NCBI GenBank assembly: GCA_013298595.1
Contig: JAAFIG010000003.1
Location: forward strand, 62,001-126,000
Source: Deinococcales bacterium
GTDB lineage: Bacteria > Deinococcota > Deinococci > Deinococcales > JAAFIG01
Length of the DNA: 64,000 nt
Direction of reading: 5' to 3'
How positions within the stretch are numbered: the stretch's first letter is position 1; every line of letters begins with the position of its first letter. Position numbers and translations under genes: made by a program. Under the pieces are notes generated by a model. The model made no database searches. It was not told the DNA's origin and saw only the letters and a program-made list of their open reading frames with translations. This document shows, piece after piece, positions 25,597 to 35,622 of this stretch.

Positions 25597-26031
25597 TTAC
25601 GGTACAGCGTAAATGCCATCATCACGAATTTGCAACTTAAAAGCTGGCAATGGTGCTCCTGCTGGTCCTTGTTTAACTGCCCCTGTTTCAAGATCAAAAA
25701 CACTGCCGTGACAAGCACATCCAACTTGGTTATTGACGGGTGCACCAACAATACAACCAACATGGGTGCAAACTGTTGAACGGGCAAGCAGATGAATATC
25801 TCCTACCGATACACCTTGTGATTGCGGTTTTGCCAATCGGACAAGGATAGCCGGATTACCACTTAAATCTAAATTCTTGCTACTGCCAACATTTGGAAAG
25901 TCACCAAGCACTGCCACTTTTACACCAGCAGCGGCAAGGCTTGCCCCTGGATTTTCACGAACTGGTAAGCAACCTGTCATACCTACCGCGCCAAGGGCGA
26001 CTAAAACTTCGCGTCTCGAGATTTTTGACAT
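25597..26031 (-). CDS. Small stand-alone Rieske [2Fe-2S] protein with Tat-like signal
   Basis: A 144-residue protein with twin-arginine signal SRREVLVALG, ending in a lipobox-like GMTGC. Rieske box 1 is CTHVGC and box 2 is CACHGS, with the usual proline-containing loop. It is therefore an exported, possibly lipid-anchored, high-potential iron-sulfur protein. It is divergent from the oxidase/bc gene block and may donate or accept electrons there. The ATG at 26031 is chosen since the longer frame adds 35 residues before the Tat motif. Confidence 0.88.
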   Translation of the reverse strand: MSKISRREVLVALGAVGMTGCLPVRENPGASLAAAGVKVAVLGDFPNVGSSKNLDLSGNPAILVRLAKPQSQGVSVGDIHLLARSTVCTHVGCIVGAPVNNQVGCACHGSVFDLETGAVKQGPAGAPLPAFKLQIRDDGIYAVP

Positions 26032-26157
26032 CTTTAGATTGTGACATGGTTCAATGTGTTTTCGATGTACGGGTTTGTTCCAAAATCGGTTTGGAAATGT
26101 TTCATTGCGATTAAAATTTAGTGGCTGAATACACATTCGTGAGTAAATCGCTATGAT

Positions 26158-26279: not shown

Positions 26280-27725
26280 ATGAGTATGGTCGAATCTTGG
26301 CGTGACCGTTTGTTTCCGGATACCACGGACTCAGCGGCGAAGCTATGGTTGACTTCTGCTGTGGTTTGGGGCGTAGTGGGTATGACTTTCGGTGTGTTTA
26401 TGGCAATTCTGTTTGTCTTTCCAGAATTTACCAAAGGCGTGCCTTGGTTGTCGTTTTCTCGTATTCGTCCTTCACATGTCAATACTGTGGTCATGTCGTG
26501 GGTTTCGATGGCAAGTATTGGTTCAATGTTTTATATGTTGCCACGCTTAGTCAAAACTCCGCTGCATAGTGAACGTTTAGCCAATATCGTCGGTTGGTCG
26601 TGGAATGCGTTTGCATTATGTATTCCTCTAACGCTTTTAAATGGTTTATCTGAAGGGCGCGAGTGGGCAGAGTTGATCGCACCAATGGACTGGTGGATGC
26701 TTGTTAACCTTGGCTTAGTGGGTTACTTAACCTTTGCCACAGTAGCAAACCGCAAAGAGCCACAACTCTACGTTTCGGTCTGGTACTGGATGGGTTCGAT
26801 GGTTGGTATGACCTTAGTCTGGATTGTTGGGAACCGAACCTTCATTCCGTTAGATGGCTTAAACGATGCTATTGCTAATTGGTTCTATGCTCACGATGTG
26901 CTCGGGCTTTGGATCACCACAATGGGTATTGGCATTATTTATTACTTATTACCAAAATTAACGGCTGGCAAAAATGGCGAACCAGGCAATCCTGTGTTTT
27001 CCCACAAAATGTCTTTAATTGGTTTCTGGGGCAATTTTGCTTTTTACACTGGTATTGGTGCTCACCATATTATTCAGTCCCCTGTTCCAGAATGGCTGAA
27101 AGCCTTTGCGATTGCCTCGAGCGTTCTCATGAGTATCCCTGTGTACTCGGCAAGTGCGAATTTCTTTTTGTCCACTCAAGGTCGTTGGGAAAACCTCGCT
27201 TGGAATTTACCACTGCGTTTTGTGACTTTTGGTTGGATTATGTACGCTTTATCCAGTTTCCAAGGTAGTTTACAAGCGGTACGCTCAATCAACTGGTATC
27301 AACACTTTACTGGCATCGTTTCGGCACACGCTCACTTAGCCATGCTTGGTGGTTTTAGTGTGGTGCTGTTCGCCAGTATTTATTATTGTATTCCGCGTTT
27401 ATACAATGTCGAATGGTACTCTAAGAAATTGGTTGTGGTGCACTTTTGGACTTTTACTGTTTCCTTTGTCATGTTTTTCTTGGTCTGGACAACCATGGGA
27501 TTTGTGCAAGCCACCAGTTGGGTGATGGGCATTAACGTTCAACAAACTGTGCCTTTTTTACAACCATTTACTTTCACTCGTATGATTGCTGCGGTTTCAA
27601 TGATTTTCTCGGTGTACATTTTTGCCTATAACTTATTGCAAACTGTTCGCTCTGCTAAACGTGCCCAAGCCACTTCTCGAGTAATATTTCCTTCACCAGT
27701 TGCCCCAGCAGCGGCGGACGATTAG
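26280..27725 (+). CDS. ccoN: cbb3-type cytochrome c oxidase, catalytic subunit I
   Basis: A 481-residue heme-copper oxidase core with about twelve membrane helices. Visible ligands are RPSHVNT (heme), YAHDVLGLW and the GAHHIIQSP pair (CuB region), and SAHAHLAMLGG (heme b and b3). The TGIGAHHIIQSPVPEW stretch is typical of CcoN rather than of aa3 oxidases. It reduces oxygen to water in the membrane with high affinity. It is the first gene of a plus-strand operon of at least twelve genes. The Shine-Dalgarno is GGTGGAG. Only two CTCGAG sites occur in 1.4 kb, far below the window's norm. Confidence 0.93.
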   Translation: MSMVESWRDRLFPDTTDSAAKLWLTSAVVWGVVGMTFGVFMAILFVFPEFTKGVPWLSFSRIRPSHVNTVVMSWVSMASIGSMFYMLPRLVKTPLHSERLANIVGWSWNAFALCIPLTLLNGLSEGREWAELIAPMDWWMLVNLGLVGYLTFATVANRKEPQLYVSVWYWMGSMVGMTLVWIVGNRTFIPLDGLNDAIANWFYAHDVLGLWITTMGIGIIYYLLPKLTAGKNGEPGNPVFSHKMSLIGFWGNFAFYTGIGAHHIIQSPVPEWLKAFAIASSVLMSIPVYSASANFFLSTQGRWENLAWNLPLRFVTFGWIMYALSSFQGSLQAVRSINWYQHFTGIVSAHAHLAMLGGFSVVLFASIYYCIPRLYNVEWYSKKLVVVHFWTFTVSFVMFFLVWTTMGFVQATSWVMGINVQQTVPFLQPFTFTRMIAAVSMIFSVYIFAYNLLQTVRSAKRAQATSRVIFPSPVAPAAADD

Positions 27726-27733
27726 GGGTTTGT

Positions 27734-28657
27734 ATGTTAAATGCCAAAAATGCAATTATTGGATTGATGTTTATGCTACTGGTCACAGGTGTTACCAGTT
27801 TAGTGGTGGTTGTACCAGCAGCCACCTTTAACCCAGAACCAACCCCTGGTTTACGCAATTATACCCAAGCTGAGTTGCGTGGACGAGAAGTCTTTAAGCG
27901 CGAGAATTGCTATGTGTGCCATAGCCAATTTGTGCGTTTCCAAGACGAAGGTGTTGGACCAACTTCTCAGGCTGGCGATTTTGCTTACGATAATTCCAAC
28001 CTTTTAGGCACGTTACGCAATGGACCTGATTTATCTTACGAAGGTGGTTTATACCCCGACGAATGGCACATTGGTCACTTAAAAGCCCCTCGTTCGTACT
28101 TACCAGGCAGTTATATGCCAAGTTATAGTTACCTCTCCAACACCGATATCAAAGACCTTGTCGCCTTTATTCAAAGCCTTGGGACACGTAACACCCGAGC
28201 TTGGGATACCAAAGATGTCAATGTGCCAGAAAAGTACCGCAACCTCAAATCGCCTTTGGGGCAAAGTGTGGCAAATATTGGTGCTGGACGCGGTATTTAC
28301 GCCCAAAATTGTCAGGCTTGCCACGGCTTTGAAGGTCGCGCCGATGTGCCATTGGCAAAAATGTTTTACCCAAAACCGGCTGCTAATTTTCACTTACCTC
28401 GTTACAAGGATTTCACCGATGGTCACTGGTTCAACAAAGTGGCTCGAGGTGTGCCTGGTACCCGTATGCCCCGTTGGGATCTCATTCTCAATTCTGAGCA
28501 AATCTGGTATGTCGTTACTTACTTAAAATCTTTAGCCGCTGACCAAGATTTGGTACCTAAAGCTGGACGCGAGAAGTACTACGATAAGAGCGTTCTGCAA
28601 CCTGGCGAGATCGAACGTGATTACAAAGATGCTCCTAAAGCAGGTAAAGGACACTAA
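27734..28657 (+). CDS. CcoO-like subunit fused to a second cytochrome c domain
   Basis: A 307-residue protein with an N-terminal membrane anchor, a CcoO-like domain with heme motif CYVCH (Cys59, Cys62, His63) and the CcoO hallmarks LRNGPDLSYEGG, WHIGHL and MPSY, followed by a second cytochrome c domain with CQACH (about residues 193-197) and axial Met in GTRMPRW. The second domain resembles the heme domains of CcoP. Canonical cbb3 oxidases have separate CcoO (one heme) and CcoP (two hemes); here one diheme protein seems to replace both. The start lies 9 nt after ccoN. The next gene overlaps at TAATG. Confidence 0.88.
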   Translation: MLNAKNAIIGLMFMLLVTGVTSLVVVVPAATFNPEPTPGLRNYTQAELRGREVFKRENCYVCHSQFVRFQDEGVGPTSQAGDFAYDNSNLLGTLRNGPDLSYEGGLYPDEWHIGHLKAPRSYLPGSYMPSYSYLSNTDIKDLVAFIQSLGTRNTRAWDTKDVNVPEKYRNLKSPLGQSVANIGAGRGIYAQNCQACHGFEGRADVPLAKMFYPKPAANFHLPRYKDFTDGHWFNKVARGVPGTRMPRWDLILNSEQIWYVVTYLKSLAADQDLVPKAGREKYYDKSVLQPGEIERDYKDAPKAGKGH

Positions 28658-28926
28658 TGCAACGCTTTTTTCGTGCAGCATTGCTCTCGAGTCTGTTCTC
28701 GAGTCTTGCCTTTGCCGATCATGTGCCTGGTGTGGGCTTAAATTACAGTGGTACTTGGGTGGTTGTAATTGCAGTGGCTGTGATTTTTTCTTTACTGATT
28801 TTATCTTTGTTATGGGCGTACTTAGATGGTCAGTTTAGTAATGCCGAACGTGTTAAATATGGTGTGACAGTTGCAGATGATTCGTTTATCCCAAGTATCG
28901 AACGTCCTGAAGTCAAGGCTTCTTAA
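28657..28926 (+). CDS. Small oxidase-associated membrane protein
   Basis: An 89-residue protein with a cleavable-looking N-terminal signal (ending SLAFAD) and one strong membrane helix (residues about 32-55), with a polar C-terminal tail. It lies where ccoQ-type small subunits are found but shows no clear similarity to CcoQ. It overlaps the preceding stop (TAATG). A small structural or assembly subunit of the oxidase is the likely role. Confidence 0.7.
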   Translation: MQRFFRAALLSSLFSSLAFADHVPGVGLNYSGTWVVVIAVAVIFSLLILSLLWAYLDGQFSNAERVKYGVTVADDSFIPSIERPEVKAS

Positions 28927-28940
28927 TCTCGAGGTGATTT

Positions 28941-29105
28941 ATGGCAGACCAAAAAGATAGTTCAACCCAAGATCATGACGATCACACCCACGAGATTGCA
29001 GGTATTCGTGTTGGTGAACGTAATGTTCCTGCATCGGTGATTGCTGTGTTTATTTTCGTTTTGTTTTTTGCATTAATTTCGTGGATTGCACCGCAGGGGT
29101 TTTAA
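28941..29105 (+). CDS. 54-residue single-helix membrane protein
   Basis: ATG at 28941 preceded by a GAGGTG Shine-Dalgarno formed by CTCGAGGTG, stop TAA at 29103-29105 overlapping the next start by one base. The product has a His/Asp-rich N-terminus (QDHDDHTHE), one hydrophobic helix (about 30-48) and ends IAPQGF. The tight spacing on both sides makes it a real gene. It is probably a small subunit of the oxidase; the His-rich segment might bind copper, which is a guess. Confidence 0.75.
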   Translation: MADQKDSSTQDHDDHTHEIAGIRVGERNVPASVIAVFIFVLFFALISWIAPQGF

Positions 29106-30115
29106 TGAAAAAAATCATGCAGTTTCTCCTCATTTCGAGTTTGGCAGCTTGTAGTTTGCCAAGTAAACTCAGTGTGGATACGCCAGATACTTCAGCCGTG
29201 GAAAAAGGTTCGATTTCGTTGCGTGAAGGTGCTAAGAATCTCGAGATCACACCAAAAGAAGGCGAGTATGCTTGGAAGTACCATAAGTACCCCGAGGATT
29301 ACAAAATAGATTTATCAAACCGCGACCCTGACAATAAAACCTATATGTCTGGTCGTGAAATTACCTACCGCGCCAATGCCGAAGGGCAACCAAAAATGGA
29401 TACGGCACTGGCAGAAGCTGGTTCGTATGCAGGTCCGTGGATTGAAGGCGAAGAAGCCTTGTTATTGCCCGTTGGCTACCCTAATGTCGTATTTGGCGAT
29501 GCTTTAATTAAAGTGTTAGGGTCTGAAATCAAACCCGAAATGCTTCCAACGCTCGAAGAAAGTCCATTCCAAGGGTTTTTAAAACTACAAGAATTAGGTC
29601 GGGATGCAGCAGGTAAGTACCGTACTGTGCCTGTGGAAATCAGCGGCGTAACCAACCCTTCAACTGGTAATGCCGAAGTGGCTGTTTATGATGTCCAACT
29701 CGATAAAGAAGCACTGTGGAGTCTGACCTATGCGTTATACCGCAAAATTCAACCTGATTTTTCGGTGCGTATCCCAACAAAAGATGATCCGAAGAAATTA
29801 GTAGATGGCGCTTTGGTTTTTGGTAATTGCAACATGTGCCACGGTTCTGATGGATGGGGCTTAGGCAAAAGTGGGCATAAATTACAACCACACCCAGCCA
29901 ATTTTCACGAACCACGACGTTTATTTAATCGCTCTGATACAAAACTCCGCGAAGTTTTGCGCCACGGTGTTTATGGCAGTGCAATGCCACCTTGGGGTGA
30001 TAAATTATCCGACGCAGAAATTAATCATGTGGTTGCGTACCTCAGAGCTTTTTCTTACTCCTCGAGTCCACCCGTTTTTAATATTAAACCACGTTTTAAG
30101 GGAGGTCAGCAATGA
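29105..30115 (+). CDS. Monoheme cytochrome c lipoprotein
   Basis: A 336-residue protein starting with a lipoprotein signal (lipobox SLAAC). The first 230 residues are an unrecognised soluble domain; the C-terminal domain is a class I cytochrome c with CNMCH and axial Met in GSAMPPWG. It would be tethered on the periplasmic side and carry electrons between the Rieske/cytochrome b complex and the oxidase. The start is the ATG that overlaps the stop of the 54-residue gene; the Rieske gene follows with a 4-nt overlap. Confidence 0.88.
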   Translation: MKKIMQFLLISSLAACSLPSKLSVDTPDTSAVEKGSISLREGAKNLEITPKEGEYAWKYHKYPEDYKIDLSNRDPDNKTYMSGREITYRANAEGQPKMDTALAEAGSYAGPWIEGEEALLLPVGYPNVVFGDALIKVLGSEIKPEMLPTLEESPFQGFLKLQELGRDAAGKYRTVPVEISGVTNPSTGNAEVAVYDVQLDKEALWSLTYALYRKIQPDFSVRIPTKDDPKKLVDGALVFGNCNMCHGSDGWGLGKSGHKLQPHPANFHEPRRLFNRSDTKLREVLRHGVYGSAMPPWGDKLSDAEINHVVAYLRAFSYSSSPPVFNIKPRFKGGQQ

Positions 30116-30777
30116 TTGACCGCAGAAGTGTTCTCAAAGGCTTTGTCAAAAATGCCACCATCTTGCCAATTCTCGCTGTCGTAGGTGGCGTTGGCACAGC
30201 CTTGTTATCGTATCTCAAGCCAACGTGGAAATTTGGTGATTTACCAAGTACCGAAAAACCCTTAAATAAGGATAAAGTTGTCGGTACGCTCGAGGAATTT
30301 GCCAAGGATTACGATTTCAAAGAATTTATTTTCACCCAAGTAACCGTCGAATACTCAGCTCGAGGTCGGGCAGCCACAGATATTCTTGGGTATGCTGTTC
30401 GTATTCCAAACGATAGCTTAAAAGCGGCTGATGTTGGCGTTGGACCGAGTGGTTTACGCCGAGGGTACGGTGAAACCGAGTACAAGGGGCAAAAGTACAG
30501 CATTGTTGTGGTCTCGAGAATTTGTGCACATCTGGGGTGTATTTTTGAGTATCACACACCAGAGCAAGTCTGTTCTGGATTTAATTATTGTGGTGGTAAA
30601 ACACCAATGTTCTCTTGCCCGTGTCATTTGTCAGTTTACGATCCTGCCCAACAACAAGACGTTCCTGGTGCAGGTGTTTTAGCAGGCAAAGTCGTTTCTG
30701 GTCCAGCACCTCGTACCCCGTTCCCTTTTGATTTTGAAATCAAGGGCAATCAGATTGTCGTCAAGAGTTACGGCTAA
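30112..30777 (+). CDS. Rieske iron-sulfur protein of a bc-type complex
   Basis: A 221-residue protein with a twin-arginine motif DRRSVLKG and an uncleaved N-terminal membrane helix, then the Rieske domain: box 1 CAHLGC (ligands Cys138, His140) and box 2 CPCHLS (ligands Cys169, His172), with Cys143 and Cys171 as the disulfide pair. The loop between the boxes carries an insertion with two more cysteines (154 and 160), unusual for bc-complex Rieske proteins. It is the high-potential acceptor of quinol electrons. Shine-Dalgarno GGAGGT and a 4-nt overlap with the cytochrome c gene show coupling. Confidence 0.92.
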   Translation: MIDRRSVLKGFVKNATILPILAVVGGVGTALLSYLKPTWKFGDLPSTEKPLNKDKVVGTLEEFAKDYDFKEFIFTQVTVEYSARGRAATDILGYAVRIPNDSLKAADVGVGPSGLRRGYGETEYKGQKYSIVVVSRICAHLGCIFEYHTPEQVCSGFNYCGGKTPMFSCPCHLSVYDPAQQQDVPGAGVLAGKVVSGPAPRTPFPFDFEIKGNQIVVKSYG

Positions 30778-30793
30778 AAGGAGGAATTGAATT

Positions 30794-32110
30794 ATGGCAG
30801 CTCCCGCAGTTCCAACCAAGAAAGCCACTCCACATGTTGGGCAAAAAATTGCTCAGTGGTGGACAAAAAGTGCTCGTAACTTAGACCTGTTTGATGAAAA
30901 TCAAACTGATCGTGTTTTAACCGACCCTTGGTACATGTTGGGTGGTATGGCATTGTTGTTTTGGTATATCACCATTGCCACTGGTACTGTTTTAATGTTT
31001 TTCTATGTGCCTGATACTTACCAAGCTTGGCGTAGTGTGCGCGGTATTTTTGAAGGCGAACAAGGCTTCTTAGTCGCACTCATCCGCAATATGCACAAGT
31101 ATGGTGCTGATGCTCTGATTATTGCTTTAACCATGCGAATTTACCGCATGTATTTCCGTGGGGAATTCAAAAACTATAATCAGCTTTCCTACATGGTGAC
31201 AATTATTGGTTTGATTCTTGCCATGTTTAGTGGTTTGACTGGTTACTTACTGATTTGGAATCAACGCGCACTTTGGGCAACTAAGGTCTTTGCTACTTTC
31301 CCAACTTTTGTAGATGATTTCCATAGTATTCCAACGATTAAAGTTTTTATGGCACCCGTTGCTTACATCCTTGAACATACTTTATCAAATCTTAAAATTG
31401 GGGCTTTAACAGCTAATTTTATGTTGGCTGGTCAGAGTATTGGTGACGCAACACTAACGCGTTTTTACAGTGCCCATTTTATGCTTTCAATTTTAGCGAT
31501 TGTGGCTATCGAAGCTTACTTTGCTCGTAAAGGACGTGGTGGCAAAATTGGTGAAGCAGCAGCTGGTGGTGGTGCAGGGCGTTTCAAGCGAATTAATATG
31601 CCTTGGTTTGCGGTGCTGTTTTGCTTTATTGTGTTAATTGTCATTTCAATTTGGATGCCAGTAGATACGGGTAGTCCCGCCAATTACAACGTCACACCAA
31701 ACCCAATTTTATCTGATTGGTACTTTTTGGGCTTATACCAAATGATGAAATGGTGGAAACCTGCTGTAGCCACACTGCAAACCATTTTGTTACCACTGGC
31801 AGCATTTGCTGTGGTTTTCCTCGATTACAGCCCAGAACGCAGCCCTTGGAAACGCCCATTCTGGACGATGGTAGGAATTTATGGATTGGTTTCTTGGTTG
31901 GCTTTTAGCATTCTGATTATTCTTAATATTGCTGATATCAAACGCGACCCACCATATGTATATCTGGTCTCGATGATTATGCTGGCTGTTGGCGCAATTT
32001 GGCATTGGGTTTACAAAGCAGGCGAACGTCGCACACGCAAGAAACTCGAGGCAGAAAAAGCGGCAAAAGCAGCCCTTGCTGCGGCTGCAACCCCACAAGC
32101 TGCCGATTAA
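30794..32110 (+). CDS. Full-length cytochrome b lacking both heme bH histidines
   Basis: A 438-residue membrane protein aligned by eye with mitochondrial and b6-type cytochrome b: four N-terminal helices plus the C-terminal domain with a PEWY-like Qo motif (SDWY, residues 307-310). Helix B keeps the p-side heme ligand His101, but the position 14 residues later, normally His, is Arg115; helix D keeps His228, but the position 14 later is Tyr242. Both ligands of the n-side heme bH are thus replaced while heme bL ligands remain. The C-terminus is an Ala/Lys-rich tail. Only one CTCGAG occurs in the gene. Confidence 0.9.
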   Translation: MAAPAVPTKKATPHVGQKIAQWWTKSARNLDLFDENQTDRVLTDPWYMLGGMALLFWYITIATGTVLMFFYVPDTYQAWRSVRGIFEGEQGFLVALIRNMHKYGADALIIALTMRIYRMYFRGEFKNYNQLSYMVTIIGLILAMFSGLTGYLLIWNQRALWATKVFATFPTFVDDFHSIPTIKVFMAPVAYILEHTLSNLKIGALTANFMLAGQSIGDATLTRFYSAHFMLSILAIVAIEAYFARKGRGGKIGEAAAGGGAGRFKRINMPWFAVLFCFIVLIVISIWMPVDTGSPANYNVTPNPILSDWYFLGLYQMMKWWKPAVATLQTILLPLAAFAVVFLDYSPERSPWKRPFWTMVGIYGLVSWLAFSILIILNIADIKRDPPYVYLVSMIMLAVGAIWHWVYKAGERRTRKKLEAEKAAKAALAAAATPQAAD

Positions 32111-32140
32111 CCTCTCCCCTATTTATTAAAGGAAACCATC

Positions 32141-32446
32141 ATGAAAGGAAGCACTTGGCTCGTTACGTTGGTCACATTTGTGGCAGGCATTGTTGTGTTC
32201 TCGAGTGGGTATGCCGAAGTAGTGCGGTATCTCGAGCGTCCAACATGGGTTGGGTTGGCTTTGATTGCTTTCTGGTTTGTTTTGCTAATTTTTCTAGTGG
32301 TGAGTCTTGGTTTTATTATGTACGCTGTGGATCGTAAAGCAGGCAATGTGAAAGTGAAAATTTCTGTATTTGAAAAATTACTTGGGTACAAAGCAGATGC
32401 TGTTCTGCCTGAAGCTCGAGTGAAAAGTGATAAGGAGCAAGCATGA
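32141..32446 (+). CDS. Small two-helix membrane subunit of the respiratory complex
   Basis: A 101-residue protein with two hydrophobic helices (about 7-24 and 38-64) and a basic, Val/Lys-rich cytoplasmic end. I recognise no family. An AAAGGAAA-type ribosome site precedes it and the next gene overlaps by 4 nt, placing it firmly within the operon. Confidence 0.7.
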   Translation: MKGSTWLVTLVTFVAGIVVFSSGYAEVVRYLERPTWVGLALIAFWFVLLIFLVVSLGFIMYAVDRKAGNVKVKISVFEKLLGYKADAVLPEARVKSDKEQA

Positions 32447-32811
32447 AGACCATTTTTGCCATTTTGCTGGTGTTAGCTGCGTTGGGATTCGCACCTCTCA
32501 CCATTGGTGCGTTTGCACATAGCAACCCAGATTTTGGCACCGTAGAAACTGCTTTAACCAGCAGCAACCCATATATTGTTCGTGCTGACGCTGCCCCTGC
32601 CTTGCCAGGCTTTGTGGTCAGTATTGTCAAAGGTATTCGTGATCTCGAGGGAGCCATTTCTAATGCTGCATTGCCGCAACTTAAAAGCAATCCATTTGAA
32701 CGTGGTTTTGCTTATATGGGTATCACTGTTTTACTGACAGCTATTGCTTCGGCTTTACTGGCAGATACTCGTAGTCAAACGCTGGTTAAACCCGGCAGAA
32801 AGGCGGCGTAA
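32443..32811 (+). CDS. Small membrane protein of the respiratory complex
   Basis: A 122-residue protein with a hydrophobic N-terminal segment (1-25), a polar loop of about 65 residues and a second membrane helix (about 90-110). The loop would face the periplasm. No heme or iron-sulfur motif is present. It ends one base before the ATG of the cytochrome b-ferredoxin gene. Confidence 0.7.
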   Translation: MKTIFAILLVLAALGFAPLTIGAFAHSNPDFGTVETALTSSNPYIVRADAAPALPGFVVSIVKGIRDLEGAISNAALPQLKSNPFERGFAYMGITVLLTAIASALLADTRSQTLVKPGRKAA

Positions 32812-33999
32812 ATGGCAGGCTATAGTGCAGATCAAGCGCCAACCAGCCGCGATAAGGGATTTGACGCTGGCTTAGATGGTATCCACAAAGCTGTGGTATC
32901 TGTAGATAAAGCCATTAATAAAGTCATTCCCGAAGAATTCAACCCATTTTATTATCTTGGTGGAATCACCAATTTGTTATGGGTTTTACTGGTGCCATCA
33001 GGTATTTTTCTTTGGTTTTATTACAAACCAACCACAGCTGAGGCTTTCTCGAGCGTGGATTACTTAACTGCTCAGGTGTTCTTTGGTGGTGTGATTCGTG
33101 GTATTCACCGTTACGCAGGTAATGGCATGATTTTGATGGCGATACTGCATATGTTACGGAATTTCTTTACTGACCGTTACCGAGGCTTCCGTGATATTCC
33201 TTGGGTTTCGGGTGTTATCTTGTTATTCCTAACAGGCTTTATCGGTTTAACTGGTTACTTACTGGTCTGGGATCAACGCGCCTTAGTAATTACCGACGCT
33301 TTGGTACAAATCCTCAAAAGCCTTGACTTGGTGATTGCTGGACTGGGCACTTGGTTTGCCCAAGCCTTGATTGGTGGCGACGAACCCAATAACCTAACCT
33401 TAGCCCGCATGTTATTTTTACACGTTGGACCAGCAGTTATGGTTTTCTTTTTCTTGTGGGTGCATTACTTGCGTTTGCACCGACCAAAAATCTGGCCTCC
33501 AATGTTTGTAACCTTACTAACTATCGGTGCAGTGTTATTAGCCGCTGGTCTTGCTCCACTCGAGAAAACCTTACCAGCCACGCAGCCCTTTGTTGAAGGT
33601 CAAACCGCATTGGTTTACGATATTTTCTACTTGTTACCTGTATTGGCACTCTCGAGTCTGAGTGCTCCTGCTGTGATGGCAATTTTGCTGGCATTGTTTG
33701 CTGTGATGTTTATTCTGCCTTGGCTACCAGCTAAAAAGCACCGTTACATCAATGTGGCAACGGTTACCCCAGAAAACTGCACTGGTTGCCAACTTTGCGC
33801 CATAGATTGCCCTTTCGATGCCATTATTATGGTTCAAGGCTCAAACCCGAATCCGCGTTATAGCGAATTAGCTGTGGTCAACGATGACAAATGTGCTGAG
33901 TGTGGAATTTGTGTTGGCGCTTGCCCTTTCCATGCAATTAACCTTCCTTTGATGGATGAATACGCGATACGCGATAAGGTGGTGGCATTACTTAAATGA
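32812..33999 (+). CDS. Cytochrome b fused to a 2x[4Fe-4S] ferredoxin domain
   Basis: A 395-residue protein. The membrane part has four helices with all heme ligands: His99 and His113 in helix B, His204 and His218 in helix D, so two hemes b are expected. Three further hydrophobic segments follow, but where the PEWY motif should stand the sequence reads YDIFYLLP, so a normal Qo site is unlikely. The C-terminal domain (about 312-380) is a bacterial ferredoxin with CxxCxxCxxxC twice (Cys323/326/329/333 and Cys361/364/367/371). The clusters would face the cytoplasm. It overlaps the following MvhD-like gene by 4 nt. Confidence 0.93.
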   Translation: MAGYSADQAPTSRDKGFDAGLDGIHKAVVSVDKAINKVIPEEFNPFYYLGGITNLLWVLLVPSGIFLWFYYKPTTAEAFSSVDYLTAQVFFGGVIRGIHRYAGNGMILMAILHMLRNFFTDRYRGFRDIPWVSGVILLFLTGFIGLTGYLLVWDQRALVITDALVQILKSLDLVIAGLGTWFAQALIGGDEPNNLTLARMLFLHVGPAVMVFFFLWVHYLRLHRPKIWPPMFVTLLTIGAVLLAAGLAPLEKTLPATQPFVEGQTALVYDIFYLLPVLALSSLSAPAVMAILLALFAVMFILPWLPAKKHRYINVATVTPENCTGCQLCAIDCPFDAIIMVQGSNPNPRYSELAVVNDDKCAECGICVGACPFHAINLPLMDEYAIRDKVVALLK

Positions 34000-34484
34000 C
34001 AAGCACATCTGATACAACTCAACCCAATGTCCTAGCCCAAAATGGCAAACCAAAAATCCTTGGTTTCTTATGCGAATGGAGCTTAGGACGCACCGATCAT
34101 ATCCACGAAGATGGCACAGTCAAAGGTATGGAGCACATCAAAACCATTAAAATTCCATGCAGTGGTTTTGTTAAAACCGAATGGGTGACAGTTGCTTTTG
34201 AAAATGGCGCACAAGGCGTTTTTATTCTTGGATGTCCACTAGGCGATTGCCATTTTAATGAAGGCAACTTCATTATTAACGGACGACTCGAGCAACACGT
34301 TGGACGTTTAGTCAACCGTAAAATTGTGGACGATTCAGGTCGGGTTGCCGAACTGTACTTAGGCGCAACGGGTAACAACGATTTCTTTGGTCAACTCGAA
34401 GATTTTACTAAGTACATTGAAGCCTTGCCGCCATTGGTGGTGGCTGCTAAAAAACCACGCGCTGCTGCCGCGAAAAAGGAGTAA
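33996..34484 (+). CDS. MvhD/FlpD-like iron-sulfur protein
   Basis: A 162-residue cytoplasmic protein matching the hydrogenase iron-sulfur subunit family (MvhD, FlpD), which hands electrons between a dehydrogenase and heterodisulfide reductase in methanogens. Visible motifs are FLCEWS (Cys26; the usual second Cys of CxxC is Ser29), IPCSGFV (Cys55) and LGCPLGDCHFNEGN (Cys80, Cys85). Four cysteines remain, enough for one [2Fe-2S] cluster. An Ala/Lys-rich tail ends the protein. Its 4-nt overlap with the cytochrome b-ferredoxin gene suggests direct contact with the ferredoxin domain. No hydrogenase or HdrA is in the window. Confidence 0.85.
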   Translation: MTSTSDTTQPNVLAQNGKPKILGFLCEWSLGRTDHIHEDGTVKGMEHIKTIKIPCSGFVKTEWVTVAFENGAQGVFILGCPLGDCHFNEGNFIINGRLEQHVGRLVNRKIVDDSGRVAELYLGATGNNDFFGQLEDFTKYIEALPPLVVAAKKPRAAAAKKE

Positions 34485-34487
34485 GCC

Positions 34488-34706
34488 ATGAGCGATATTT
34501 CTTTAGAAGCCCGAACCCAAGAAGGCAAGATTCTCGAGTCTAATGGTGAATCTGGTTTAACGGTACGCCCGGAACTCGAGCAGGTCGCCACAGTTGAAAA
34601 AGATGCTCGAGGTATTGGTTATGTGATGAATTGGATTAGTCTGATTGTCTTGTTTGTTGTTTCAATGGCAATTATTGCTTGGTTCGGTCCGTTCAGTGAA
34701 GTGTGA
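34488..34706 (+). CDS. Small single-helix membrane protein, last gene of the operon
   Basis: A 72-residue protein with an acidic soluble N-terminus (about 40 residues) and one C-terminal membrane helix (about 47-66). AAGGAG Shine-Dalgarno and 3-nt spacing to the previous stop tie it to the operon. The family is unknown; it could anchor the MvhD-like protein to the membrane complex. Confidence 0.65.
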   Translation: MSDISLEARTQEGKILESNGESGLTVRPELEQVATVEKDARGIGYVMNWISLIVLFVVSMAIIAWFGPFSEV

Positions 34707-34766: not shown

Positions 34767-34808
34767 TAGAATCATGGTCTATCAGGGGCGACTCCAACCG
34801 AGCCGCCC
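34767..34808 (+). promoter_or_regulatory. Possible promoter -10 and leader hairpin of the kinase gene
   Basis: TAGAAT at 34767-34772 could serve as -10 (no clear -35). Just downstream, GGGGCGACTC (34783-34792) pairs with GAGCCGCCCC (34798-34807) to make a GC-rich hairpin like the other REP-type elements. The Shine-Dalgarno GGAGAA and ATG at 34834 follow. The hairpin may also end read-through from the respiratory operon. Confidence 0.4.
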
Positions 34809-34833
34809 CTCGAGTCTTCGCATCGGAGAAGCC

Positions 34834-35622
34834 ATGTGTGCCCAACTGAGTATCCAAGCTGTAGAACCCGCGAACGGAATTAGTCATATCCAACTTATTG
34901 CCAGCACAGCCCAAATTCTTTTAGAACGCGCCCATTGGAACGGTATACCTGTTTGGGTTAAGCGTGTTAAACCAACATTGCTTAGCAACATAGAAATTCT
35001 TGAACGTTTCGACCGTGAAGGCGATGTTCTCGAGCGTTTAGATCACCCCAATATTCCGCGTTTAGTGCATCGTGACCGTGGCATTCTGATGCGTGAATAC
35101 ATCGAAGGTAATTCCTTGCATCATTACCTCGAGCACACCAATATTGATTATGCCAGCACCTTACATATTGCTAAAGGTGTCTTATCAGCATTGGTGCATT
35201 CGCATGTCCGCGAAATTCTGCATTTAGATGTTAAACCTTCTAATGTTTTACTGAGCGCAAACCGCCGTGTGCATCTGATTGATTTTGGTTCAGCTAAGGA
35301 TTTAACCGTTGAAAGTATCACCCAAGCTGATGTCCGATTAGGCACACCACATTACATGGCACCAGAACAATACCAAGGTATCCGAGACGATCAACGCAGC
35401 GATGTCTACAGTGTTGGGGCTTTACTCTACGAATGCTTAATGGGAAAACCATTGCATAAAGACCCATTCGCTTGGTTAGCCGGACGCGGACAATTACCCA
35501 CCGACCTACCCAACCATCAAGGTTTAGCCAAAATTATTCTTAAAGCCGTGCAACGCAACCCAGAAGACCGTTATGCAGAAGCCTTAGATATGCTCGAGGC
35601 ACTTGAAGGTTTATACTTTTAA
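34834..35622 (+). CDS. Serine/threonine protein kinase (soluble)
   Basis: A 262-residue single-domain Hanks-type kinase. Seen motifs are the ATP-lysine segment VWVKRV, the catalytic loop HLDVKPSNVLL (HRD replaced by HLD, Asp kept), the DFGSAK metal-binding loop, LGTPHYMAPEQY activation segment and DVYSVGALLYE. There is no membrane helix or sensor domain, unlike PknB-type kinases. The ATG at 34834 is chosen because it has a Shine-Dalgarno and follows the putative start of transcription. Its stop overlaps the stop of the convergent next gene by 4 nt. Confidence 0.92.
   Translation: MCAQLSIQAVEPANGISHIQLIASTAQILLERAHWNGIPVWVKRVKPTLLSNIEILERFDREGDVLERLDHPNIPRLVHRDRGILMREYIEGNSLHHYLEHTNIDYASTLHIAKGVLSALVHSHVREILHLDVKPSNVLLSANRRVHLIDFGSAKDLTVESITQADVRLGTPHYMAPEQYQGIRDDQRSDVYSVGALLYECLMGKPLHKDPFAWLAGRGQLPTDLPNHQGLAKIILKAVQRNPEDRYAEALDMLEALEGLYF

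Follow-up and report, generated by a model that had tools for sequence, protein, structure and literature searches.

What route do electrons take through an operon that places a terminal oxidase, a Rieske protein, two cytochromes b, a ferredoxin domain and an MvhD-like protein side by side? The question is raised by a contig of a Deinococcales bacterium (JAAFIG010000003.1, assembly GCA_013298595.1), of which we analysed a stretch of 64,000 nucleotides (hereafter the window). The operon, at positions 26280-34706 of the + strand, consists of 12 open reading frames (ORFs), all of which were confirmed. One of its cytochromes b (cytb1) has lost both ligands of heme bH, whereas the other (b-Fd) has kept them and continues into a ferredoxin domain. 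We put at about even the chances that the operon encodes an asymmetric Rieske/b complex tied to a C-family oxygen reductase, with electrons flowing outward to the cytosol.

Heme ligands of the two cytochromes b

In Rieske/b complexes, quinol is oxidised at the Qo site, which sends one of its electrons to the Rieske cluster and the other to heme bL; from bL the electron usually passes to heme bH of the same monomer. We aligned 36 cytb1 and 34 b-Fd sequences with 15 proteins in which a b-Fd is fused to FlpD (mostly from eNOR-like operons) and with 14 ordinary cytochromes b of other Deinococcota. Both bL histidines are present in all 99 aligned sequences. Both bH histidines are found in every b-Fd (34/34), every fusion (15/15) and every ordinary cytochrome b of Deinococcota (14/14), and in none of the 36 cytb1. 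At the helix-B ligand position, all 36 cytb1 have Arg. Tyr or Phe fills the helix-D position of 30 of 35 sequences, the others having Leu, Met or Trp, and two residues ahead of it a Glu is invariant (35/35). This Arg and Glu may occupy the vacant heme pocket. A tree built from the N-terminal b domain separates a cytb1 clade (support 1.0) from a b-Fd clade (0.68). These replacements and the separate clades indicate that the loss of the bH site is old and maintained, and does not reflect a decaying gene.

In cytb1 the Qo motif reads SDWYF in 35 of 35 sequences, Ser standing for the Pro of PEWY/PDWY. At the equivalent position of b-Fd, the Pro is lost throughout (34/34) and the Trp in 16 of 34 (kept in 18/34), while the Asp is kept in 33/34. 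Judged by these residues, cytb1 and b-Fd are complementary, not redundant, and since cytb1 has no bH its low-potential electrons would have to pass to a partner. Of the features of a Rieske/b complex, the full set of four heme-ligand histidines is present in b-Fd, while cytb1 has only the bL pair; the complex encoded by the operon is of the Rieske/b kind but fails one defining feature in one subunit. An earlier, sequence-only reading of this DNA had already called the two cytochromes b unlike, which the alignment bears out; the difference in their heme ligands had gone unnoticed.

Composition of the operon and its occurrence in three phyla

The genes of the operon, with three features inside them, are the following (coordinates in the window, strand, description and evidence):

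26280-27725, +, CcoN-like catalytic subunit of a C-family (cbb3-type) heme-copper oxidase, 481 amino acids (PF00115, 238 bits; solved cbb3 CcoN, E 4e-62)
27734-28657, +, CcoO-like domain fused to a class I cytochrome c, 307 amino acids (PF02433 and PF00034; CXXCH at residues 59 and 193)
28657-28926, +, small membrane protein, 89 amino acids, one transmembrane (TM) helix (hydropathy; kept in the Deinococcales family, weak match in G219)
28941-29105, +, small membrane protein, 54 amino acids, one TM helix (hydropathy; kept in the Deinococcales family and in G219)
29105-30115, +, monoheme cytochrome c with a lipoprotein-type N-terminus, CNMCH (PF13442/PF00034; CXXCH at residue 250 of the listed ORF)
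30112-30777, +, Rieske [2Fe-2S] protein with the N-terminal anchor RRSVLKG (C138/H140 and C169/H172; second-sphere Ser and Tyr in CPCHLSVY)
30794-32110, +, cytb1, a cytochrome b with a Qo motif, bL ligands H101/H228 and no bH ligands (R115 and Y242, with E240 nearby; PF00033, PF00032)
31136-31138, +, codon of R115 of cytb1, which replaces the helix-B bH histidine (ligand-column alignment)
31511-31513, +, codon of E240 of cytb1, two residues ahead of the lost helix-D bH histidine position (ligand-column alignment)
32141-32446, +, small membrane protein between cytb1 and b-Fd, 101 amino acids, two TM helices (hydropathy, synteny)
32443-32811, +, small membrane protein, 122 amino acids, two hydrophobic segments (hydropathy, synteny)
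32812-33999, +, b-Fd, a cytochrome b (H99, H113, H204, H218) with a C-terminal dicluster ferredoxin (PF00033 and Fer4)
33754-33990, +, 2x[4Fe-4S] ferredoxin domain of b-Fd, residues 315-393 (C323, C326, C329, C333, C361, C364, C367, C371)
33996-34484, +, MvhD/FlpD-like soluble protein, 162 amino acids (PF02662, 79 bits; four Cys at 26, 55, 80 and 85)
34488-34706, +, small membrane protein, 72 amino acids, one TM helix, at a conserved position behind MvhD (hydropathy, synteny)

The spacings between successive genes are 8, -1, 14, -25, -4, 16, 30, -4, 0, -4 and 3 nucleotides, that is, gaps of 0-30 nucleotides and four or five short overlaps. The value of -25 before the cytochrome c gene becomes -1 if this gene starts at the ATG at 29105, which is more likely than the GTG at 29081 of the listed ORF. 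Three c-type hemes are predicted by motif, CYVCH and CQACH in the FixO/cytochrome c fusion and CNMCH in the lipoprotein. The Pfam score of the Rieske protein is slightly under the cut-off, yet its CxH..CPCH motif is complete. Among the operon proteins there is a class I cytochrome c lipoprotein, no match to cytochrome c1 or f, and no flavoprotein. The sequence-only reading had described a tight composite operon of 12 genes that brings together an oxidase, three hemes c, a Rieske protein, two cytochromes b, a ferredoxin and an MvhD-like protein; family matches and motifs uphold this gene set, and the order recurs in relatives.

These relatives are metagenome-assembled genomes (MAGs) of the window's Deinococcales family, four including that of the window, with completeness of 91-94%. 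The full operon is present in identical order in all four, the copy of G001 being split across two contigs. Within the phylum, FlpD proteins were found in only 4 of 111 genomes, namely the four of this family. A scan of contigs with the b-Fd alignment (narrow peptide patterns) retrieved only three other Deinococcales bacterium MAGs and a chance ferredoxin, and a scan of viral sequences gave no matches. In another phylum, G219 carries all 12 genes in the same order, with identities to the window of 41% for ccoN, 42% for cytb1, 34% for b-Fd and 31% for MvhD; its small membrane proteins are recognised by weak similarity or by position. Because the whole order recurs in the four family genomes and in G219, the arrangement is not due to chance.

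A third phylum (that of G185) has a cytb1 homologue in 38 of 43 genomes, to which G397 adds a 39th with a cytb1 truncated by the contig end; the cross-phylum search also led to G327. The genes for cytb1, b-Fd and MvhD lie on one contig in 32 loci of this phylum. Contig ends break the unit in G397, G407, G416 and G422, with b-Fd and/or MvhD at matching ends or beside the cytb1 piece, and the contigs of G395, G403 and G410 stop before b-Fd. A conserved core, composed of cytochrome c, Rieske protein, cytb1, small TM protein, b-Fd and MvhD, marks 39 of the 43 genomes. The four genomes of the remaining genus have no cytb1, and FlpD at the one locus inspected (L126) stands outside this unit. Taken over the three phyla, cytb1, Rieske, b-Fd and MvhD occur together in 41 genomes, wherever contigs permit the check, with no counterexample. 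The sequence-only reading had called for a search for the conserved gene order and had named, as evidence against itself, the absence of the b-Fd and MvhD genes from otherwise identical operons: the order was found in three phyla, and no such absence was seen wherever contigs allow. Gene set, synteny and the retention or loss of ligands are established at the level of sequence.

Two neighbouring genes were also noted. A Ser/Thr protein kinase gene (34774-35622, + strand) lies downstream of the operon and is retained in G001 and G003; kinase-like ORFs also adjoin b-Fd-FlpD fusions in G172 and G313 (loci listed for the kinase: L078 and L079). Another Rieske gene (25597-26136, - strand, motifs CTHVGC and CACHGS) is divergent from ccoN; it was rejected as a second Rieske subunit, as it does not stand at the same place in the relatives' loci.

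Oxidase, putative iron-sulfur wire and direction of electron flow

The operon oxidase reads as a C-family oxygen reductase, because in the alignment with solved CcoN all heme and CuB ligands and the helix-VII Tyr are in place (H66, H205, Y256, H262/H263, H350 and H352); all seven positions are kept in the window, G001-G003 and G219. A nitric oxide reductase was rejected on account of the same Tyr and the complete CuB ligands. CcoO is fused with one cytochrome c, and the operon has no gene for a separate diheme CcoP. The window's genome yielded no other heme-copper oxidase, and in none of the four family genomes was a cytochrome bd oxidase found, so the complex must work as a quinol-oxidising enzyme; as far as MAGs of 91-94% completeness allow, the operon is the sole quinol-to-O2 route found in the family. 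The window's genome also has a complex I operon. Menaquinone genes of the MqnA/D type (futalosine pathway) are present in 4/4 family genomes, and menaquinone is likely the quinone used.

Another arrangement is seen in family f80 and in G432, its nearest relative: in eight genomes (L063, L064, L091-L096), CcoN stands beside the b complex and has lost all seven ligand positions. The retention of this dead CcoN in the operon suggests a structural or scaffold role beside the b complex, and it supports a supercomplex indirectly, without proving it. In two f80 loci (L063, L064), genes resembling those of cytochrome c maturation (CcmC-like, CcmE-like and an ABC transporter, read by eye) lie directly upstream of the operon.

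All eight Fe-S cysteines of b-Fd are invariant in 34/34 sequences from the three phyla, as are the four cysteines of MvhD in its 34 sequences (one X at C55). The MvhD-like protein scores 79 bits with PF02662 (cut-off 22.3) and matches solved MvhD with an E value of 1e-17, and the ferredoxin-MvhD pair aligns with a contiguous C-terminal part of HdrA2 (profile positions 571-640, then 644-772). In other phyla, the ferredoxin and MvhD/FlpD pair is fused with cytochrome b as a single protein. The hydropathy profile points to an even number of TM helices ahead of the ferredoxin domain, followed by a KKHR stretch; because of this helix count and the positive stretch past the last helix, the ferredoxin domain is predicted to face the cytosol. 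AlphaFold2 models of b-Fd and cytb1, built with 3-4 sequences, had a mean predicted local distance difference test score (pLDDT) of 37-38 and were not used.

MvhD hands on electrons in flavin-based bifurcation complexes. A complex of this Hdr-Mvh kind was rejected here, the operon being without a flavoprotein.

In the operon-type Rieske proteins, the cluster ligands CxH..CPCH are invariant (38/38), with a second-sphere Ser in 38/38 and Tyr in 37/38; ordinary Rieske proteins of Deinococcota mostly have Gly in place of this Ser. The Ser and Tyr residues raise the potential of the cluster (as cited in PMC12954380), and according to a symmetry argument the potential of bL is very low when menaquinone is combined with a high-potential Rieske protein (PMC12954380). 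Since menaquinone is likely here, bL should be at very low potential. Obligatory quinol oxidation, the Ser and Tyr of the Rieske protein and the menaquinone genes lead us to favour the exit of electrons to the cytosol.

We infer that cytb1 and b-Fd form a heterodimer whose single working Qo site is located in cytb1. One quinol electron would pass through the Rieske cluster and the c hemes to CcoN and O2, the oxidase being presumed to be physically joined to the b complex. The other electron would enter heme bL of cytb1, cross the dimer to bL of b-Fd, as it must because cytb1 has no bH, and reach bH of b-Fd, to continue through the two [4Fe-4S] clusters and the MvhD-like [2Fe-2S] cluster to a soluble partner presumably encoded elsewhere. 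Candidates for this partner are NAD(P)+, via a flavoprotein, or another low-potential acceptor. In the bc1 dimer the distance between the bL hemes is 14 A, and a dimer engineered to use only the bL-bL route still functions (PMC4330944). The full form of this proposal is a natural asymmetric bc complex that has a single Qo site and three b hemes and cannot work without the bL-to-bL step; in it, menaquinol oxidation driven by O2 pushes an electron via ferredoxin and MvhD to a low-potential cytosolic carrier; we advance it tentatively, as somewhat more doubtful than likely. The sequence-only reading had suggested one supercomplex whose low-potential branch leaves through the ferredoxin clusters or runs backwards. 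Invariant cysteines and the loss of bH in cytb1 strengthen the idea of the wire, whereas a supercomplex of all twelve products, delivery to ferredoxin and an exit driven by bifurcation remain conjectural.

Several points weigh against the proposed complex and its outward flow. The movement of an electron from the p-side to the n-side costs membrane potential, which may leave the n-side at a potential too high to reduce NAD+ or ferredoxin. The single PF01512 protein of the window's genome belongs to complex I. The Qo site of b-Fd may still work, given its conserved Asp and the Trp of about half the sequences, and a cytosolic quinone site in b-Fd could possibly sustain an ordinary Q cycle. Finally, no oxidase homologue was found in the stretch read for most genomes of the third phylum, which places the oxidase outside the conserved core.

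With the same asymmetric architecture, the wire could also run inward: a cytosolic donor (reduced ferredoxin, or NADH via a flavoprotein) would feed MvhD, the ferredoxin domain and bH, and an n-side quinone near bH would take up two electrons, one supplied by Qo and the other by the cytosol, as in the proposed ferredoxin-to-b6f cyclic flow. This direction is thermodynamically downhill and agrees with the role of MvhD as the electron entry port of Hdr complexes, and the b-Fd-FlpD fusion of eNOR-like operons, which have neither Rieske protein nor cytb1, is a possible electron input. However, complex I already passes NADH electrons to quinone and conserves energy in doing so, and the high-potential Rieske motif and menaquinone suit an uphill low-potential branch. 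The residue five past the bH histidine, at the Qi position (His or Arg in b-Fd), is Arg in most cytb1 too and hence not diagnostic; the idea of a retained Qi site in b-Fd based on it was dropped. We consider inward flow unlikely, if worth serious attention. Two further explanations do without the heterodimer or without a working wire. The operon could encode two co-transcribed machines, each a homodimer: a bc-type complex of cytb1 and a cytosol-facing ferredoxin/quinone oxidoreductase of b-Fd and MvhD. Gene order alone does not prove complex formation, and b-Fd-FlpD proteins occur without cytb1 in eNOR-like operons. A cytb1 homodimer would, however, contain no bH at all and leave the second electron of Qo without an outlet; the equivalent bH knockout in R. 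capsulatus has no functional link between Qo and Qi (PMC4330944), and cytb1 was never seen without b-Fd where contigs permit the check, which makes separate machines improbable. The operon could also encode an ordinary bc complex that runs the usual Q cycle via b-Fd and in which the ferredoxin domain and MvhD have a structural or redox-sensing role. This would account for the lack of a soluble substrate site in the operon and for its position as the only quinol-to-O2 route found. Yet it leaves unexplained the retention of all twelve cysteine cluster ligands in each of the 34 sequences from three phyla, which is unusual for decoration, and we give it very little weight.

Relation to known complexes

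No published complex of this composition was found in the open-access literature (subscription journals and preprints lie outside this search), in line with the statement of the sequence-only reading that it knew no named complex with this set. The closest published idea, and a clear conceptual precedent, is the proposal made for the Rieske/b complexes of anammox bacteria, which include a NAD(P) oxidoreductase on the cytosolic side (PMC12954380). The anammox complexes Kuste4569-4574 and Kustd1480-1485 share with the operon an n-side Fe-S path on a Rieske/b complex with a proposed exit of low-potential electrons to the cytoplasm, and a high-potential Rieske protein paired with menaquinone (PMC12954380). 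They differ in having a homodimeric b6-like cytochrome b with subunit IV, heme cN, a FAD-containing NAD(P) oxidoreductase with four clusters and hexa- or octaheme cytochromes c. Here there are two paralogous cytochromes b (one without bH), a ferredoxin fused to the other, an MvhD-like protein and a linked C-family oxidase, and the FAD NAD(P) oxidoreductase subunit is absent from the operon.

The operon resembles bc1 and b6f complexes in its Rieske protein, cytochrome b family, bL ligands, Qo motif and nearby class I cytochrome c, but departs from them in its non-equivalent, always paired b subunits, the loss of bH ligands in one of these, the n-side Fe-S clusters and the failure to find a c1 or f. 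A comparable case is an engineered cross-inactivated bc1 dimer (G158W/H212N fusion, PMC4330944), in which one half has no working Qo site and the other no bH, and which depends on the bL-bL step. That dimer is a mutated homodimer, whereas the pair described here has apparently evolved and extends across phyla, with only the loss of bH complete at the sequence level. As in the C-terminal module of HdrA2 of Mvh/Hdr complexes, a dicluster ferredoxin is followed by an MvhD domain, the same profile stretches in the same order; unlike in Mvh/Hdr, the module is joined to a membrane cytochrome b, and the operon has no HdrA flavin domain, hydrogenase or HdrBC. Its oxidase part is like a cbb3 oxidase in having a CcoN with every heme, CuB and Tyr position and a CcoO-type cytochrome c, and unlike one in that CcoO is shortened and fused to one more cytochrome c, a separate diheme CcoP is lacking and the genes sit in a b-complex operon.

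The eNOR-like operons (e.g. Defluviimonas NZ_CP156080) also combine a cytochrome b with four His, a dicluster ferredoxin and a FlpD module, but as a single fused protein, with no Rieske protein or cytb1, and subunit I has, in Defluviimonas, HSSQQ in place of the HPEVY of A/B-type oxygen reductases. The fusion is found at L048:11995-13575 (NZ_CP156080.1) and also at L065-L069, L071 and L074-L076; it recurs in several phyla, in operons with a COX2-like protein, an eNOR-like subunit I, SCO and sometimes heme O synthase.

The dimerism of bc complexes, and whether electrons normally cross between the bL hemes, have been debated by means of engineered asymmetric mutants. The lopsided version of the bc complex described here, which appears common to several uncultured bacterial lineages and is undescribed in the open-access literature, has lost the bH site in one cytochrome b; a natural complex of this kind would open the bL-bL step to testing in an evolved system. 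Such a complex would also represent, besides the anammox proposal, a second and independent way for low-potential electrons to be taken up or given off at the cytosolic side of a Rieske/b complex, and in several uncultured lineages respiration may exchange electrons directly with the cytoplasm through an Fe-S wire.

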